DNA from: a bacterium
GTDB taxonomy: Bacteria; UBP18; UBA7526
NCBI GenBank assembly: GCA_030615855.1
Contig: JAUWYL010000015.1
Span: forward strand, 1-31,322
DNA length: 31,322 nt
Reading direction: 5' to 3'
Of the stretch, positions 11,052 through 21,530 are shown in pieces. Both the position numbers and the translations under genes were made by a program. Position 1 is the stretch's first letter. Each line of letters opens with the position of its first letter. Below the pieces are notes generated by a model. That model did not search any database, was not told where the DNA came from, and saw nothing but the letters and a program-made list of their open reading frames with translations.

Positions 11052-11128
11052 CCCTAACACGGATTAGCACAGATTAGAAAAAACAGATTAGCACAGATTT
11101 AATCCGTGCCTATCCGTGTCTAATAGCC
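11052..11128. repeat. inverted array of CACGGATTAG/CACAGATTAG units
   Basis: The left arm has CACGGATTAGCACAGATTAG followed by an A-rich spacer and two more units. The right arm is its near complement (AATCCGTGCCTATCCGTG) and runs into the last codons of deoC. The RNA could form a long imperfect hairpin in the glyA leader. It is the same family as 17703-17790 and 21441-21530. Confidence 0.85.
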
Positions 11129-12007
11129 GGCTCCAGCTGGGGTTCCCTTTATGATAGCCACGCTCGCTGAGGCCCCGATCCTGGTGGCTCCGGCCTTGAG
11201 CAAGGCTTGGACATCCTCAAAGGTTCTGACTCCTCCCGAGGCCTTTACCCCCATAATAGGACCAACTATGCGACGCATGAGGGCAACATCGGCTACCGTT
11301 GCCCCCCCTCCACTGAAACCGGTGGATGTTTTAACAAAGTCTGCTCCAGCTTCCTTTGCTATCTGACAGGCCTTAATCTTTTCCTCTTGAGTTAGTAAAG
11401 CAGTCTCCAGAATCACCTTAACAATCCTTCCATTGGCCGCATTGACTACCGCCTGAATATCCTTTTTCACCAGATCGTAATTCTTTGCTTTCAGGGCTCC
11501 GATGTTCATCACCATATCGATCTCATCCGCTCCATTGGCGATGGCATCCCTGGTCTCCATGGCCTTGGCCGTGGAGGTCGTGGCTCCTAAGGGAAAACCG
11601 ATTACCGTAGTGATCTTGACTGGGGTCCCTTTTAGTACCTTTGCTGCTAAGGGGACATAACTGGGATTGATGCAGACAGAGGCAAAGTTATACTTCTTTG
11701 CCTCCTCACATAACTGGGTGATCTTCTCTGGAGAGGCATCGGGCTTTAAATAGGTATGATCAATGGTATGGGCAATCTCTTCTTTTGGCGGCCTTGCTCC
11801 AATGGTAGCCCCTATCCTCTCTGCTCCAGCAGCAACTACTTTCTCCACCTCACTGGGACACTTAACAACGCATAATCCACAGGCAGTACATTCGCTATCC
11901 GTTGCCGGACAGATGGTCACTCCAGGAATAACTCCTGTCTCCTCTTCAGCAAGGCGCCGCATAACATTCCTGGTTATTCTATCTATTAGCTCATCGAACT
12001 CAGCCAT
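11120..12007 (-). CDS. deoC: deoxyribose-phosphate aldolase with encapsulation tag and ferredoxin-like Cys motif
   Basis: 295 aa, about 70 longer than typical bacterial DeoC. Residues 1-23 ([20 protein letters not shown]) form an amphipathic helix of the BMC-cargo type. Residues 40-51 read [12 protein letters not shown], the classic C-x2-C-x2-C-x3-C-P signature for a [4Fe-4S] cluster, with another Cys at 33. The aldolase barrel starts near residue 76. Catalytic residues are present: D164 (DEIDMV), the Schiff-base K226 (FVKTSTG) and K255 (GVKASGGVR). DeoC splits 2-deoxyribose-5-phosphate into acetaldehyde and glyceraldehyde-3-phosphate, so it would be the signature enzyme feeding the shell. 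The role of the cluster motif is unknown; it could be structural or redox. Confidence 0.95.
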
Positions 12008-12035: not shown

Positions 12036-12094
12036 CGTTTACCGTTAACCCGCTTCGCTGTTTACCGTTTACCGTAAACCGTTAACCGTAAACC
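12036..12094. repeat. ACCGTTAACC-type repeat with CGCTTCG core
   Basis: The gap between deoC and the third BMC-P gene consists of words GTTTACC, GTTAACC and GTAAACC in both polarities, around CCCGCTTCGCTG. GTTTACC and its complement GGTAAAC alternate, so the array is partly self-complementary. The same words recur at 14726-14840, 25780-25815 and 26821-26923. Confidence 0.85.
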
Positions 12095-12099
12095 TGCTT

Positions 12100-12369
12100 T
12101 CATTCCATGTCGATGCGGTCTATTACTCCTGCGATAAAAGTCCTCACGGGAATATCTGGATTGCCGAATGCCTGACGGGCAGAGTTTCCCTCATCGATGA
12201 CCAGGACCGTCTCCCCAAAGCCGGCATAACCCTGATCCACGGCCATCAGGGAATTCCCCTCAGGCTTTAGTTTTTTATTCAGAGGTTGAACAATTAAGAG
12301 CCTATTCCCTTCCAGGTGCTTATTCTTCCTGGTAGCTACCACTACCCCGGTTACTTTAGCTATTAACAT
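12100..12369 (-). CDS. BMC-P pentameric vertex protein (EutN/CcmL family), copy 3
   Basis: 89 aa, full length for the family. The N-terminus reads MLIAKVTGVVVATRK, the middle RLLIVQPLNKK and the pentamer loop GYAGFGETVLVIDEGNSARQ, with a C-terminal VIDRIDME. BMC-P proteins form pentamers capping the vertices of the shell. The start lies 12 bp after the SH3 lipoprotein gene and upstream of deoC. Three different BMC-P paralogues in one locus imply distinct vertices or mixed shells. Confidence 0.93.
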   Translation of the reverse strand: MLIAKVTGVVVATRKNKHLEGNRLLIVQPLNKKLKPEGNSLMAVDQGYAGFGETVLVIDEGNSARQAFGNPDIPVRTFIAGVIDRIDME

Positions 12370-13255: not shown

Positions 13256-13789
13256 CTATTTCAAGTATTTTTTTTCTATTCCCATTATCTTATCTACTCT
13301 TCGGGCATGACGACCACCAGCGAACTTAGTCTCCAGCCATACCTTAACCATCTCCTTTGCTAAAGCAACTCCAATGGTCTGGCCCCCGAGACATAGAATA
13401 TTGGCATCATCATGCTCACTGGCCATCTTTGCAGTAAAGGTGTCATAGGCCAAAGCCGCCCTTATTCCGGGAACCTTATTACAGGCGATGCAGGAACCCA
13501 TTCCCGCACCATCGATCATTATTCCTTTAGAACATTCTCCCTTTACAACCTCTGAAGCAACGAGATGGGCATAGTCCGGATAGTCGCAGGACTCCGGGCT
13601 ATAGGGACCACAGTCCTTCACCTTATATCCCAATTCATTGAGATATTTTCTCAGTTCCTCCTTTAAGGGGAACCCTCCGTGATCGCTCCCCATGGCAATT
13701 TTCTTCTCATCCTTAGGAGGAGCTTCAGAGGATTTTAACTGAGCAGCAACTTCTTTTACGATCTTCTTTATGATATCCTCAGAAACCAT
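13256..13789 (-). CDS. rpiB: ribose-5-phosphate isomerase B-like enzyme with encapsulation tag
   Basis: 177 aa, about 28 longer than RpiB at the N-terminus. Residues 1-20 (SEDIIKKIVKEVAAQLKSS) form the cargo-type amphipathic helix, followed by a Pro/Lys-rich linker and the RpiB domain from KKIAMGSDHGG. Conserved elements are SDHGG, DYPDYAH, NKVPGIRAAL, SEHDDAN with the ring-opening His, and GGRHARRV for phosphate binding. The catalytic Cys of E. coli RpiB (in ICGTG) is replaced by Asp (MIDGAGMGS), as in LacA/LacB-like relatives, while two other Cys sit close by (GSCIACNK). It interconverts ribose- and ribulose-5-phosphate, or a related sugar phosphate. Confidence 0.92.
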   Translation of the reverse strand: MVSEDIIKKIVKEVAAQLKSSEAPPKDEKKIAMGSDHGGFPLKEELRKYLNELGYKVKDCGPYSPESCDYPDYAHLVASEVVKGECSKGIMIDGAGMGSCIACNKVPGIRAALAYDTFTAKMASEHDDANILCLGGQTIGVALAKEMVKVWLETKFAGGRHARRVDKIMGIEKKYLK

Positions 13790-13794
13790 TCTTC

Positions 13795-14028
13795 TTACTC
13801 TTTTATAATTTTGATTCTGAATTCCAGGGCCCTATCCCGGGCAAAAGGGGTGATGATGGCATCCCTGGGAACCCTTAATTCCTTGCATCCCTGCTTTGCC
13901 GCCTTAAGCATCACCTCTTCATTAACGAGCATCCTCTTCGTCCCACGGGGAGAAGTTACCTTCCCCTTTCCAGCCAACTCCTTCTGGACCTCTTCAGTAA
14001 CGATTTGAATCAACTTCTCTTTATCCAT
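13795..14028 (-). CDS. small encapsulation-tagged protein with EutQ/EutT-like N-terminal module
   Basis: 77 aa from the ATG at 14028 (a GTG at 14037 is an alternative). Residues 1-18 (MDKEKLIQIVTEEVQKEL) match the amphipathic tag of its neighbours. After a Gly/Lys linker, residues 34-74 (LVNEEVMLKAAKQGCKEL, then VPRDAIITPFARDRA) resemble from memory the short N-terminal segment of EutQ and EutT, where I-T-P-x-A-R is conserved. No catalytic domain follows. It ends 5 bp before rpiB, so the two are probably co-translated. It could be a cargo scaffold or adaptor; I cannot assign a function. Confidence 0.75.
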   Translation of the reverse strand: MDKEKLIQIVTEEVQKELAGKGKVTSPRGTKRMLVNEEVMLKAAKQGCKELRVPRDAIITPFARDRALEFRIKIIKE

Positions 14029-14047
14029 TTCGCTCACTCCGTTCGCT

Positions 14048-14153: not shown

Positions 14154-14705
14154 TTATAAGAGGGCTTTACGTAGTGCCTCATGGGGCTTGGGGATGACGG
14201 TTCGATTGACTAATAGTCCTTCCTCTTCTATCTCTCTGCAACCAGCATCTATGGCAGCCTTGACCGCATCTACTTCTCCTGTCAAGGTAACGAAGCCCTT
14301 TCCGGCCAATCCCTTTGCTAAACGAATTTCGATGAGTTCTATCTTGGCCGCCTTTACTGCGGCATCTGCAGCCAGGATAATGGCTGATACAGAGAAGGTC
14401 TCTATTACACCAATTGCTTTTAGCTCCTTAATAACGCTCGTTCCCATTATGGCCGGAAAGACATCGGAGTGGACATTGGGAATGACGAAGCTATCCATCA
14501 CTGTTTCTTTACCCACTTCCTTTCCTTTATCGATTGAGGACCGGACACTGGCCACATCTCCCATTACCAAGACGATATATTTACCGGGGCAGATGGAGAA
14601 GGATTCGATGAGGTCCACTGCCGCTACCTTCATCATGGCATCACAGACCTCAAACCCCCGGGCAACACTATTCAATTCCACCATACCGATGGCATTTTTA
14701 ACCAT
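14154..14705 (-). CDS. pduT: BMC-T tandem-domain shell protein, PduT-like
   Basis: 183 aa with two fused BMC domains: residues 1-90 (NAIGMVELNSVARGFEVCDAM) and 91-183 (AIGVIETFSVSAII). It forms pseudohexameric trimers in the shell. The loop SFSICPGKY carries Cys39 at the place where PduT has its pore Cys (ICPGKF); in PduT three such Cys hold one [4Fe-4S] cluster at the pore. The C-terminus (LLVNRTVIPKPHEAL) is also PduT-like. The start has GAGG 5 nt before the ATG. It follows pduS directly, and the pair fits an electron-transfer route through the shell. Confidence 0.93.
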   Translation of the reverse strand: MVKNAIGMVELNSVARGFEVCDAMMKVAAVDLIESFSICPGKYIVLVMGDVASVRSSIDKGKEVGKETVMDSFVIPNVHSDVFPAIMGTSVIKELKAIGVIETFSVSAIILAADAAVKAAKIELIEIRLAKGLAGKGFVTLTGEVDAVKAAIDAGCREIEEEGLLVNRTVIPKPHEALRKALL

Positions 14706-14725: not shown

Positions 14726-14840
14726 ATAGTTTACAGTTTATCCGCTCGGCCTTTGGCCTCGCTGTTTACTGTTAACCGTCTTTTACCGTAAACCGTACAC
14801 CGTTAACCGTAAACCCTATCTTGCTGGTTACTGCTCACTG
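14726..14840. repeat. ACCGTTAACC-type repeat between pduS and pduT
   Basis: It consists of GTTTAC, GTTAACCG and GTAAACC words in both polarities around CTCGGCCTTTGGCCTCG, an inverted repeat GGCC-TTT-GGCC. The 24 nt at 14792-14815 are identical to 26900-26923, and the first 17 of them to 25798-25814. The array abuts the stop of pduS. Confidence 0.9.
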
Positions 14841-16163
14841 TTATGCTTCGATAGTAATAGAGTCTCCGATATCGGTTATCTTTCCCTCTATTGAGGCATG
14901 AATCCTTGCTCCTAAGGCTCCTCTGGGAATATCGGCAATCAAATCTCCCACTTTTACTTTCTCATTCAACTTTACGGTCGGGATCGATTTTGCTCCCACA
15001 TGCTGAGAGAGAGAAATCCTGACAAGGTTCGTCCGATATTCTCTCTTCTCCAGAGGAGCATCAAGATTATATTCCTCTATTCCGATCCTTGAGATGATCC
15101 TCTCTGTAGGAACTTTGCGATACTCTATCATGGAATGGGCTTCCTCCGGAGCCTCCTTATGGGGATTCTTAACCTTGGCCTCTGTCAGTTCCTTTTTAAT
15201 CTCCTGATTCACCCTGAGTGGTGATAGTCCAAAAGGACAAGCATATAGATTACATAAACCGCATTCTGAACAGAGGAAAGCAGCGGTGATGTCATTCAAT
15301 TCCTTTCTCATTTCATACCCCACATGCCTCATTATCTTATGGGGTTTTAAGGAATGGCCGATTAAGTACCGGGGACAGAGTTCAGTGCAGTCGGTGCACT
15401 GCATACAGAGCATGGTCTTCCTGAGGATTTTTCTCATCTCCAGGGTCTTGTTCATAATGACCTGATGGTCTTTGGGCAGGACAATCAATCCCGTGGTGGT
15501 CTTCATTACTGGGGAATCCAAATCTTCAATCAGTTTCCCCATCATAGGTCCGCCATCCAAGACAGAAAAATCATTTATCTTTGGTTCAGCTAATCTTATT
15601 ACCTCTCCCACACTCATCCCCACGGGAACCTTCACTGACTTCGGTCCCTTCACCGCCCCGGATATTGTGAGATAGCGATGGGTGACCGGCCTTCTTTCTA
15701 TAGTATCTGCAACATTGATGAGGGTTCCCACATTATCCACCACCACTCCCACTTGTAGGGGAATTCCTCCCTCAGGGACGATCCTCTTCAATACCTCATA
15801 GACCAGTATCTGCTCATCACCCGCAGGATAGAAGTCACCAAGGATAAATAGTTCGATGTGGGATGGAGGATGTGGGATGTGGGATGTTAAAGCAGCGATG
15901 GCCTCTTTATATTTTTCTTTTAAAGCAATAAATCCCTTCTTGGCTCCCGTGGCCTCCATTACTAGCTTTAAACCCTTGATCACTTTGTTCGCTTGGGTAG
16001 CCATTAATTGCTGATCGATGCGCAAGAGAGGCTCACACTCCGCACCATTGGCGATGACATACTCTACCTTGGTCTCTAACTTCACATGGGTGGGGAAGCC
16101 CGCTCCCCCTGCTCCCACCACCCCAGCATCCCTTACTTTCTCAATAATCTCTTTCTTATTCAT
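14841..16163 (-). CDS. pduS: PduS-like iron-sulfur flavoprotein (RnfC-related NADH dehydrogenase)
   Basis: 440 aa. The NADH/FMN-binding start reads VVGAGGAGFPTHVKLE, followed by YVIANGAECEPLL and LGDFYPAGDEQILVYE. Two [4Fe-4S] motifs are visible: C253/C256/C259/C263 (CMQCTDCTELCP) and C298/C301/C304/C309 (CSECGLCNLYACP). A C-terminal barrel domain (GDLIADIP) closes the protein. In Pdu systems PduS is a cobalamin reductase, but no B12 enzyme is in this window, so here it more likely oxidises NADH and passes electrons to PduT. Residues about 93-104 (TSHIPHPPSHIE) come from a repeat. The start codon lies at the edge of a tandem octamer array. Confidence 0.92.
   Translation of the reverse strand: MNKKEIIEKVRDAGVVGAGGAGFPTHVKLETKVEYVIANGAECEPLLRIDQQLMATQANKVIKGLKLVMEATGAKKGFIALKEKYKEAIAALTSHIPHPPSHIELFILGDFYPAGDEQILVYEVLKRIVPEGGIPLQVGVVVDNVGTLINVADTIERRPVTHRYLTISGAVKGPKSVKVPVGMSVGEVIRLAEPKINDFSVLDGGPMMGKLIEDLDSPVMKTTTGLIVLPKDHQVIMNKTLEMRKILRKTMLCMQCTDCTELCPRYLIGHSLKPHKIMRHVGYEMRKELNDITAAFLCSECGLCNLYACPFGLSPLRVNQEIKKELTEAKVKNPHKEAPEEAHSMIEYRKVPTERIISRIGIEEYNLDAPLEKREYRTNLVRISLSQHVGAKSIPTVKLNEKVKVGDLIADIPRGALGARIHASIEGKITDIGDSITIEA
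15854..15888 (-). repeat. in-frame GGGATGT array inside pduS
   Basis: On the plus strand this reads as GATGTGGGATGGAGGATGTGG followed by two more GGGATGT units. It encodes the His/Pro-rich stretch SHIPHPPSHI between a helix and the LFILGDFYPAGDE strand. It is placed in a loop and kept in frame, like the arrays in trpE and the SudA-like gene. Confidence 0.8.
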
Positions 16164-16249: not shown

Positions 16250-17680
16250 TTAGGCAATTCTAAAGTAATCCACCAATACGCATCTTAAGGGTCTAGTGAA
16301 GGTGCTGGCTTTGGTCAATCCTTCTCCAGTGGGGGTGGCGATGCTCATGGTGGCATATCCCTCTCCCTCGTACCCCAACCCGGCATAGGAAGGGGCATTC
16401 TTAACGAAGATGGAAACTTGAGCGGTCTTGGCCATCTTGGTCAGATTGGCAACATTTAAGGAATGCATGATGGCGGTATGCTTATTGGCCTGTTCAACTT
16501 CTACAGCAAAATTAATTGCCTCATCAACATCTTTTACCCTGACAAAAGGGATGACCGGCATGAGCTGCTCTGTCCAGACGAAAGCGTGGTTTCGGTCCAC
16601 TTCACAGAATAAGAGTCTGGTACTCTCTGGTACTTTTACTCCAATCTTGGAAGCGATTAAAGTGGCATCCCTACCAATATACTCCCTACTCACTTTGGGC
16701 TCTTTCCCTGGACCACCTGGTTCCAGTATGGCGGCCTTGGTTAACTTTTCAAACTCATCCTTCTTTAACTCATAGGTCCGGGGATCCTTGCGCAATAGTT
16801 CCAATAATCTATCAGCAATAGCTTCCACGGCGATGATCTCCTTCTCTGCGGTACACAAGACGCCATTGTCAAAACTGGCTCCCTTTATGATGGAGTCAGA
16901 GGCATGCTCTAAGTCTAAAGTCTCATCTATTACTACTGGAGGATTCCCTGGACCAGCAGCAATCACCTTCTTTCCGCAGGCCATGGCGGCTCTCACCACC
17001 CCTGGCCCACCAGTGACTAGGATGAGCTTTATCTTGGGATGCTTGAATAGTGTCTGGGCCTCTTCAATGGAGGGCTTGGCAGCAGTGGTCATCAGATTTG
17101 CTGGCCCACCTGCTTTTATAATCGCTTCATTAAGAATCTGAATGGATTTCAGGGATACCTTCTTGGCTGCCGGATGGGGGGCGAAGACCACACTATTCCC
17201 GGCAGCGATGATGGAGATGGCATTATTTATTATGGTAGAGGAAGGATTGGTAGAGGGAGTCACAGCACCTATTACTCCAAAGGGAGCCATCTCCACTAAG
17301 GTTAAACCATGGTCCCCAGTATAGGCTATGGGGTGTAGATCCTCTACTCCAGGGGTCTTCTGGGCAGATAATAAGTTCTTCTGGACCTTATCCTCCCACC
17401 TTCCCATCTTGGTCTCTTCCCAGGCCAATTTTGCTAAACTCTCTGCCTCCCGGATTGAGGCCTCCCTCATAGCCTCGATATATTTGCTCCTCTTCTCCAG
17501 ACTCTCGCGAAAGAGCTCCCTTTGGGCAATCCGTGCCGCCTCAATGGCTTCCTCCACATTAGGAAAGACCCCCAGGTCCCCAGCACCTGCCTTTACTTCA
17601 GGAGGTCTGGCCTCTTCTTTGGTCATCCTCTCTACTATTTCCTTAACAACTTCTCTTATCTTCTCTGGACTGATCTCCAT
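16250..17680 (-). CDS. CoA-acylating aldehyde dehydrogenase (PduP/EutE type), encapsulated
   Basis: 476 aa from the ATG at 17680, which has GTGAGG six nt upstream; an ATG at 17686 is possible. Residues 1-23 (MEISPEKIREVVKEIVERM) form the cargo helix, then a linker (ARPPEVKAGAGDLG) leads to the dehydrogenase domain. The catalytic Cys276 is in FDNGVLCTAEKE, and the cofactor loop in VTPSTNPSST and LVTGGPGVVRA. It oxidises acetaldehyde with NAD+ and CoA to acetyl-CoA. It would take acetaldehyde from DeoC and pass acetyl-CoA to PduL. No alcohol dehydrogenase accompanies it, unlike in the classical Pdu and Eut loci. Confidence 0.95.
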   Translation of the reverse strand: MEISPEKIREVVKEIVERMTKEEARPPEVKAGAGDLGVFPNVEEAIEAARIAQRELFRESLEKRSKYIEAMREASIREAESLAKLAWEETKMGRWEDKVQKNLLSAQKTPGVEDLHPIAYTGDHGLTLVEMAPFGVIGAVTPSTNPSSTIINNAISIIAAGNSVVFAPHPAAKKVSLKSIQILNEAIIKAGGPANLMTTAAKPSIEEAQTLFKHPKIKLILVTGGPGVVRAAMACGKKVIAAGPGNPPVVIDETLDLEHASDSIIKGASFDNGVLCTAEKEIIAVEAIADRLLELLRKDPRTYELKKDEFEKLTKAAILEPGGPGKEPKVSREYIGRDATLIASKIGVKVPESTRLLFCEVDRNHAFVWTEQLMPVIPFVRVKDVDEAINFAVEVEQANKHTAIMHSLNVANLTKMAKTAQVSIFVKNAPSYAGLGYEGEGYATMSIATPTGEGLTKASTFTRPLRCVLVDYFRIA

Positions 17681-17702
17681 CTTCATCCTCACTTCGCTCC
17701 GG

Positions 17703-17790
17703 TGCACGGATAATCACGGATTTCATACGGATGAGCACAGATTAAATCCGTGCTAATCTGTATTATTATCAGTGCTAATCCGTGTCTAAG
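17703..17790. repeat. inverted array of CACGGATAAT/CACAGATTA units
   Basis: The left arm has GCACGGATAATCACGGATTT and GAGCACAGATT. The right arm has AATCCGTGCTAATCTG and GTGCTAATCCGTG. The arms are near complements, so the leader of the aldehyde dehydrogenase gene could fold into a long hairpin ending about 20 nt before its start. Confidence 0.85.
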
Positions 17791-18076: not shown

Positions 18077-18100
18077 CTGTCTCCTCCTTATAGATTAGAA

Positions 18101-18168
18101 GTTTACAGTAGCCAGTTAACAGTAACCAGTCTTCTACTGTAAACTGTTCGCTGGTTACTGGTTACTTC
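18101..18168. repeat. GTTTACAGTAACCAGT-type repeat between ackA and BMC-P copy 1
   Basis: Words such as GTTTACAGTA, CAGTTAACAGTAACCAGT, ACTGTAAACTG and GCTGGTTACTGGTTAC form a partly self-complementary array. It is a relative of the ACCGTTAACC family with CAGT in place of CCGT. It runs into the ackA stop codon. Confidence 0.8.
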
Positions 18169-19398: not shown

Positions 19399-19456
19399 TA
19401 GCAGTGTACAGTTTACAGCAAAAAACTGGTTACTGTTCGCTGGTTACTGATTACTC
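19399..19456. repeat. CAGTTTACAG/GGTTACTG repeat between pduL and ackA
   Basis: It contains GTGTACAGTTTACAG and two copies of CTGGTTACTG separated by TTCG. It is the same subfamily as 18101-18168. Confidence 0.75.
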
Positions 19457-19470
19457 TTTATCTTAACTTT

Positions 19471-20112
19471 TTATGATATTTCTACTAGGTCTCCTTGAGA
19501 TAGGCCAGCGGCATTGGCCTCATCAATATCTATATGGAAATCTAACCTATGGGTTGGTCCCGACCTTATCATGACGTTATCGAATATTAATGCTCTCTTT
19601 CCCGGTACCTTTACCTTTACTGTATCCCCGTCCTTCACCCCAAAGCCCCTTGCTTCATCTGGAGACAAGTGGATATGGCGCTGGGCAATAATCGCCCCCG
19701 CTCTTAAGTTAATCTCTCCCTTGGGGCCGATAATCTTTATCCCGCTCGAGCCCTTTATATCTCCCGAAATCCTCACTGGAGGTTTGATTCCCAAGATGTA
19801 GCTATCTGTTCTTGAGACCTCGACCTGGGTCTCTTTTCTTACTGGGGCCAGGATGCGCACCTTTTCCATCCTTCCCTTTGGTCCTACTAAGGCGACTACT
19901 TCATTTGCTGCAAACTGCCCTGGCTGAGAGAGGTCTCTCAGTTTTGTCAGTTTCGCTCCCTTTCCGAATAGGGTTTCTAAATCCTTTGTAGTAAGATGTA
20001 CATGTCTATTAGAGAGACCGACTGGGATCTTTCCAGGAGGTGCTTTGGGCGCGGCACTCAGCTTGCTTAAGACCTCCTCCACTATGGAACGAACTAACTT
20101 CTCATCGTACAC
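19471..20112 (-). CDS. pduL: phosphotransacylase PduL, encapsulated
   Basis: 213 aa from a GTG at 20112, chosen because GAGGA lies 7 nt upstream; a TTG at 20136 would add eight residues but has no such site. Residues 1-20 (YDEKLVRSIVEEVLSKLS) form the encapsulation helix. Two PduL half-domains follow. Zinc-binding His residues are seen in GLSNRHVHL and AQRHIHLSPDEA, with the family motif LDFHIDIDEANAAG near the C-terminus. It converts acetyl-CoA and phosphate to acetyl-phosphate and recycles CoA inside the compartment. Position and tag agree with a core cargo enzyme. Confidence 0.95.
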   Translation of the reverse strand: MYDEKLVRSIVEEVLSKLSAAPKAPPGKIPVGLSNRHVHLTTKDLETLFGKGAKLTKLRDLSQPGQFAANEVVALVGPKGRMEKVRILAPVRKETQVEVSRTDSYILGIKPPVRISGDIKGSSGIKIIGPKGEINLRAGAIIAQRHIHLSPDEARGFGVKDGDTVKVKVPGKRALIFDNVMIRSGPTHRLDFHIDIDEANAAGLSQGDLVEIS

Positions 20113-20149
20113 TTTCTTGTCCTCGATAGATGTCAATAAAATACAGTAT

Positions 20150-20989: not shown

Positions 20990-21133
20990 CTAAACACAGA
21001 TTCACACAGATAAGAGACAGATTCACACAGATCACAGATATTTAATAGCATCCGAATTCCAAAAAATTCTAATATCGAATTTTATAATCTGTGATCTGTG
21101 GCCATCTGTAAACAATCTGTGATGATCTGTGCT
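20990..21133. repeat. inverted array of ACACAGAT(C/TC) units with AT-rich centre
   Basis: The left arm (about 20993-21041) has repeated ACAGATTCACACAGAT words. The centre includes GAATTCCAAAAAATTC. The right arm (about 21087-21132) has ATCTGTGATCTGTGG and CAATCTGTGATGATCTGTG. It separates the BMC-H gene from tpiA and could fold into a large imperfect hairpin. Confidence 0.85.
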
Positions 21134-21422
21134 ATTTACCAGGAGTGATGGGCATTACCCCTTCCAGATCCGGATGAGGTCGGGGAATGACGTGGACGCT
21201 TATCAGTTCTCCTACTTTCTGGGCAGCACTGGCTCCCGCATCGCAGGCTGCCTTGCAGGCGGCAACGTCACCCCTCACCAAGGTAGTGACATAGCCGGCT
21301 CCGATCTTCTCCCAGCCCACGAGATTCACCTTGGCGGCCTTGATCATGGCATCTGTAGCCTCGATAAGGGTTACCAGTCCCTTGGTCTCAATCATCCCCA
21401 GCGCTTCTCTTGCTTCTACCAT
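21132..21422 (-). CDS. BMC-H hexameric shell protein
   Basis: 96 aa from the ATG at 21422, where GAGGAGGTGA lies 5 nt upstream; the frame can be extended 18 codons into repeat sequence, but [15 protein letters not shown] is the family start. A single BMC domain has the pore segment [10 protein letters not shown] (residues 39-48) and the edge-forming [11 protein letters not shown]. The C-terminus ([14 protein letters not shown]) is normal. It forms the hexamers that tile shell facets. It is the only BMC-H in the window and the first gene of the locus. Confidence 0.96.
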
Positions 21423-21440
21423 TTTCTTCACCTCCTCTAA

Positions 21441-21530
21441 TACACGGATAATCACAGATTCTTTACGGATGGTCACGGATCAAATCCGTGCTAATCCGTG
21501 TTGTTATCCGTGCTAATCCGTGTCTATTTA
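21441..21530. repeat. inverted array of CACGGATAATCACAGATT units before the BMC locus
   Basis: The left arm has CACGGATAATCACAGATT and ACGGATGGTCACGGAT. The right arm has AATCCGTGCTAATCCGTG, then TTATCCGTGCTAATCCGTG. It fills the gap between the diguanylate cyclase gene and the first BMC gene, so any BMC leader RNA begins with this hairpin-forming tract. I see no sigma-70-like promoter in it. Confidence 0.85.

Follow-up and report, generated by a model that had tools for sequence, protein, structure and literature searches.

A recurrent four-cysteine module on the linker of microcompartment-type deoxyribose-phosphate aldolases and a candidate [4Fe-4S] site

Deoxyribose-phosphate aldolase (DERA, or DeoC; EC 4.1.2.4) is a class I aldolase whose reaction is metal-free. 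A DeoC-type aldolase is shared by loci for the sugar-phosphate-utilising (SPU) microcompartment, which PMC8217296 defines by a pfam01791 aldolase and a pfam02502 isomerase together with shell proteins. The SPU literature (Axen 2014, PMC4207490; Sutter 2021, PMC8217296) notes PduS in Atribacteria, and its passages on the aldolase that we located describe no Cys or cluster module, in contrast to the DeoC studied here; Sutter 2021 mentions only encapsulation-peptide (EP)-like N-terminal extensions. Fe-S or putative Fe-S sites have been described in microcompartments for PduT, GrpU, PduK and PduS, including a tetracysteine motif in the terminal extension of PduK (PMC6325248). However, the sites there belong to the shell or to a dedicated oxidoreductase, whereas the DeoC module sits on the signature aldolase. 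Among open-licence papers, we found none that describes DERA cargo with an Fe-S or Cys-rich linker, which agrees with the initial annotation in that it knew of no described function for such a module in DeoC.

The stretch of DNA that we analyzed (the window) comprises the 31,322 nucleotides of contig JAUWYL010000015.1 from a bacterium of the UBP18 lineage, and its locus contains a pfam01791 aldolase, a pfam02502 isomerase and shell proteins. With a DeoC-type aldolase, RpiB, an aldehyde dehydrogenase (AldDH), PduL and shell proteins in common, the locus is predicted to encode an SPU microcompartment and matches those described in PMC4207490 and PMC8217296. All of its genes discussed here lie on the minus strand. 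The shell proteins are a pentameric BMC-P (12100-12369; Pfam EutN_CcmL, 88 bits), a hexameric BMC-H (21132-21476; Pfam BMC) and a PduT-like BMC-T (14154-14705; Pfam BMC) that scores 142 bits against TIGR02526, below the cut-off of 250. The sequence SICPGKY (C39) in this BMC-T is a PduT-type pore motif and a predicted Fe-S site of the shell (compare PMC6325248). An RpiB-type sugar isomerase (13256-13789; Pfam LacAB_rpiB, 196 bits) and the AldDH (16250-17707; Pfam Aldedh) both have EP-like N-termini followed by Cys-free linkers, and the locus further encodes a PduL phosphotransacylase (19471-20136; Pfam PTAC) and a PduS-like flavin/[4Fe-4S] oxidoreductase (14841-16163; Pfam Complex1_51K, Fer4_17 and RnfC_N). 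An 80-aa open reading frame (13795-14037) joins an EP-like start to the C-terminal part of TIGR02536 (eut_hyp); L008 and related proteins have the remaining, flavoprotein-like part of this family fused ahead of DeoC. Short dispersed repeats of GTTTACCGTAAACC-like and CACGGATTAGCACGGATT-like families occur mostly between the genes of the compartment locus (11059-11123, 12047-12094, 14762-14815, 17705-17789, 18095-18166, 19402-19455, 20996-21037 and 21443-21527).

The deoC gene (11120-12007) encodes an encapsulated-type DERA of 295 aa, the only DeoC that a family search recovered from this genome, and it was assigned by Pfam DeoC (E=1.4e-19, 71 bits) and by TIGR00126 (313 bits, cut-off 117). The DeoC/LacD fold was confirmed by Foldseek, whose ten best matches had TMt values of 0.93-0.98; identity to the solved DERAs 8qps and 6d33, which share the whole barrel and the catalytic residues, was 64-66%. 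Residues D164, K226 and K255, invariant in alignments of 27 and of 64 sequences, are presumably equivalent to D102, K167 and K201 of the Escherichia coli enzyme, that is, the catalytic Asp and the two Lys. Given that the catalytic residues are intact, the Cys module described below is an addition to a normal enzyme. The TIM barrel begins near residue 78, and solved DERAs align by sequence only from about residue 72-92 onward; none of them aligns to the Cys module, which separates DERAs of the window type from the solved ones despite the shared barrel and catalytic residues. The N-terminus (residues 2-24, 11936-12004) is modeled by AlphaFold2 as an EP-like helix, with a pLDDT of 82-85 across residues 1-20 and an amphipathic repeat that is kept in relatives. 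Because DeoC combines an N-terminal amphipathic helix with a linker, as is expected of EP-bearing proteins, we regard it as putative cargo.

Five of the eight Cys in the protein (33, 40, 43, 46 and 50, as opposed to 100, 112 and 214) fall between the encapsulation helix and the barrel. They form a Fer4-like segment at residues 33-50 (11858-11911), C33-x6-C40-x2-C43-G-x-C46-x3-C50-P, in which CxxCxxC (C40/C43/C46) is accompanied by a further Cys at C33 and also at C50. Such arrangements were rare in shuffles of the whole protein, given that CxxCxxCxxxC arose in 8 of 200,000 and C-x(4-11)-CxxCxxC in 84 of 200,000, and so the Cys motif that had been proposed for this position is real. The initial annotation listed C40, C43, C46 and C50 within 11810-11911, and all four are present there. 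However, this span runs from C33 (11909-11911) to residue 66 and therefore holds five Cys rather than four, with C33 having been overlooked. The choice of C50 as the fourth member did not hold up either, since C33 is kept, while position 50 is occupied by Arg, Lys, Asn or some other residue in almost every other carrier; within type A (defined below), it is not retained beyond near relatives of the window DeoC. In two-cluster ferredoxins, the CxxCxxC motif serves one cluster and the Cys of the CP pair serves the other, so the loss of C50 fits a single-cluster site. A single cluster needs no CP Cys and C33 is the kept fourth thiol, which makes C33/C40/C43/C46 the conserved quartet of candidate ligands, and C50 is probably accessory.

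The remainder of the linker copies a part of the enzyme itself. Residues 49-68 (11804-11863) match, as a helix-strand unit, the α7-β8 unit at the C-terminal end of the barrel (residues 261-280, 11168-11227). The consensus of the N-terminal unit, rRPEDVRAIVDAGADRIGAT, matches the same barrel unit with a non-anchor BLOSUM score of 10.3 compared to -9.5 (SD 8.0) for shuffles. When the N-terminal unit of each of 133 sequences (a set with near-copies) was compared to its own barrel, the α7-β8 place was the best match in 95%. Encapsulated DERAs thus carry, within their N-terminal module, a second version of the α7-β8 unit of their own barrel, which may serve in docking or packing.

We collected homologues by barrel similarity, with no use of Cys content, and obtained 109 encapsulated-type DERAs from several phyla. 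Of these, 33 were type A, defined as C-x(3-12)-CxxCxx[C/S], 32 had four or more Cys at other spacings (type B), 24 had two or three Cys and 20 had none or one, although the labels A to C are crude. Among the 95 DeoC linkers with a GAxR motif, the number of Cys per 60-residue linker peaked at exactly four (41 linkers), and CxxC was the commonest spacing. In an unselected Elusimicrobiota sample, all 14 intact extended DeoCs kept C33/C40/C43/C46 and had another residue at C50; this sample was used as evidence instead of the A3 profile, in which Cys invariance is by construction given that its members were chosen by Cys pattern. Several Myxococcota DeoCs among L153-L168 show the same type of pattern, as do L176-L179 from the phylum of G017. 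In L161, L162 and L165 the C46 position is Ser and an additional upstream Cys restores the total of four, as would be expected of a tetrathiolate site. Acidobacteriota linkers read CxC-x3-C-x3-CP, with the CP Cys present and a different upstream spacing, and no linker Cys was found in the DeoCs of Spirochaetes. An alignment of microcompartment-linked DeoC proteins, which had been put forward as a check, therefore shows the Cys module to be kept across phyla as a kind, but not in its exact letters and not at C50. As for other features of these N-termini, in the Elusimicrobiota linkers L112-L119 the stretch that separates the targeting helix from the Cys module holds a VTxGTxGKxF-type repeat two or three times, and Myxococcota L145-L149 have short N-termini with no obvious targeting helix and a Cys-rich start such as MSCxxCxCP.

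Close to the window, the module is both kept and absent. All five Cys are kept in two other-genus relatives of the window's family (L001/L083 and L002/L084), and all five are absent from the same-genus genomes L003 and L004, where a 45-base in-frame gap spans C40-C50 and C33 is replaced by Ser. This pair nests within a Cys-bearing clade in a quickly built tree with many weakly supported forks, and because of that position, loss of the segment is the simpler reading of these sequences. A further contig from the L004 genome (L005) carries another deoC fragment. Over residues 97-295 its barrel protein matches the window DeoC at 100% identity, while its DNA is only 92% identical to the window over 3.1 kb; this fragment possibly reflects a strain mixture or a second copy. 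Numerous relatives carry only two or three Cys or none at all, so the four-Cys site is dispensable to the compartment.

The comparison of this motif to [4Fe-4S] sites was supported by its resemblance to ferredoxin cluster-binding segments. Tested alone against Pfam Fer4, the Cys segment scored 21.1 bits, equal to the cut-off of 21.1; in the whole window DeoC, Pfam gave no Fer4 match at E<=0.001. A profile of 25 type-A modules searched against the PDB matched [4Fe-4S] ferredoxins, PsaC and related proteins (best 9.8e-7), and no ferredoxins were found with the type-B profiles of other Cys spacing. Because ferredoxins are an expected result for any CxxCGxC profile, the PDB matches favor a cluster and do not prove one. 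Like bacterial 2x[4Fe-4S] ferredoxins, the DeoC module has a CxxCGxC loop followed by a helix; in contrast to them, it corresponds to one half only, has the CP Cys mostly replaced and the fourth Cys upstream (C33), and is fused inside an aldolase linker. Structure prediction, which had also been suggested, was informative in part: two AlphaFold2 runs gave a confident barrel and no confident fold for the Cys loop, whose pLDDT was about 50 in the window DeoC and under 50 in an Elusimicrobia homologue, although the alignments behind the predictions were shallow in that region.

The module is restricted to DERA among the cargo proteins. Linkers of AldDH, RpiB and PduL in the same loci have almost no Cys, compared to typically four to six in DeoC linkers where the module is present, and a module HMM run over the open reading frames of all fetched loci found no convincing carrier other than DeoC. 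The untagged matches to this HMM that were inspected proved to be C-terminal ends of DeoC. Every one of the 66 genomes tested that encode an encapsulation-type DeoC also had BMC-P genes, compared to none of 12 control Myxococcota genomes that have no such DeoC. In the Myxococcota and G017-phylum loci that were read, deoC does not adjoin recognizable shell genes despite BMC-P in the genome, a separation that Sutter et al. (PMC8217296) note for some HO genomes. As far as gene content can tell, a four-Cys module recurs in DERA across several phyla only where a microcompartment is predicted.

We infer the metal, the cluster type and the function of the module from these patterns. The most likely reading, to which we assign a probability of about 0.45, is that the cargo linker holds a [4Fe-4S] site with a structural role and perhaps a redox-responsive one. 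In this model, the encapsulated DERA would split deoxyribose 5-phosphate into acetaldehyde and glyceraldehyde 3-phosphate inside the SPU microcompartment, and its linker module would consist of a half-ferredoxin-like four-Cys loop, C-x(4-11)-CxxCGxC, followed by the α7-β8 copy. One [4Fe-4S] cluster per subunit, bound by C33, C40, C43 and C46, would fold an otherwise flexible linker and fix the position of the targeting helix relative to the barrel, and it may make packing or activity responsive to oxygen or redox state while taking no part in the aldol reaction. We counted the four-Cys peak, the compensating Cys, the recurrence across phyla, the Cys-poor linkers of other cargo, the tie to compartments, the ferredoxin matches of the type-A profile, the Fer4 score of the window segment, the loss of the CP Cys, the whole-segment absence in L003/L004 and the intact catalytic residues in favor of a tetrathiolate [4Fe-4S] site; the plastic spacing of the four Cys, the Cys-poor relatives, the failure of type-B profiles to find ferredoxins and the low pLDDT of the Cys loop were counted against it. 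A further proposal, which we consider doubtful, is that the half-ferredoxin loop and the α7-β8 copy form a compartment-specific [4Fe-4S] module that, fused to DERA and kept across phyla, turns a non-redox cargo aldolase into a redox- or oxygen-responsive element by which SPU and HO-type compartments control how cargo is packed or how active it is.

The initial annotation raised the possibility that a cluster on the aldolase links cargo to the PduS/PduT electron route. As a relay, the cluster would act as a tethered ferredoxin between redox partners in the lumen (PduS or a flavoprotein domain) and the pore cluster of PduT, and we regard this as unlikely. The window locus does encode a PduS-like protein and a PduT-like one that carries the pore Cys, and a flavoprotein domain (PF02441/TIGR02536-like) is fused ahead of DeoC in L008, L011 and the G090 protein. 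PduS was present in 24 of 33 type-A genomes, 13 of 32 type-B genomes, 10 of 24 with two or three Cys and 5 of 20 with none or one, counts that come from draft genomes in which PduS may be missed; no PduS was seen in 9 type-A and 19 type-B genomes. A coupling of the Cys module to PduS was weakly indicated by the raw association (Fisher p=0.03) and was rejected once that association was lost in an independent-pairs test, in which PduS status was the same in 5.2 of 7 pairs on average and power is low because the pairs are few. Furthermore, L003 and L004 retain both PduS and PduT without the Cys, the flavoprotein-fused L011 has no linker Cys, and the aldol reaction is non-redox. Given the PduS-less carriers, the Cys-less genomes with PduS and PduT and the lack of coupling in independent pairs, a dedicated electron route from the aldolase to PduS is not supported, although the fused flavoprotein domain keeps a redox role open.

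Ranked behind the relay, and also improbable in our estimation, is a zinc knuckle in which the four Cys bind structural Zn and stiffen the linker or mediate cargo contacts. This would suit the freely varying Cys spacing, the CxxC-x6-CxxCG form of Myxococcota L020, L027, L140 and L141, which resembles a zinc ribbon knuckle, and hosts that, judged by phylum, include aerobic ones. However, three Cys within seven residues, as in CxxCGxC, are a typical feature of [4Fe-4S] sites, the type-A profile found ferredoxins among the PDB matches listed, and the CxxC-CxxC profile found no zinc protein. Thiol chemistry is less probable still, whether as disulfide cross-links between cargo proteins in an oxidizing lumen or as a trap for acetaldehyde or crotonaldehyde that spares the active-site Lys and Cys. 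In E. coli DERA, Lys167 and Cys47 become cross-linked by acetaldehyde-derived crotonaldehyde (PMC8403123), and the window DeoC has kept the equivalent of Cys47 (Cys112); variable numbers and spacings of Cys would also suit sacrificial or cross-linking thiols. The four-Cys peak, the compensating shifts and the CxxCGxC pattern nevertheless suggest a metal site, and AldDH also handles acetaldehyde, yet its linker is almost Cys-free. Non-functional drift of a tolerant linker would accommodate the clean absence of Cys in the L003/L004 subclade and the many Cys-poor relatives, but Cys retention over deep divergence in several phyla, on DERA linkers and not on other cargo linkers, makes drift very improbable.

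In summary, our analysis favors a linker [4Fe-4S] site in encapsulated DERAs that is structural and may also respond to redox state. For a textbook metal-free aldolase, conservation of a tetra-Cys site would be the first indication that the signature enzyme of these compartments has a cofactor or is under redox control. Collectively, the four Cys and the existence, within a single family, of natural variants that have or lack them would offer a handle on how cargo is organized or protected.
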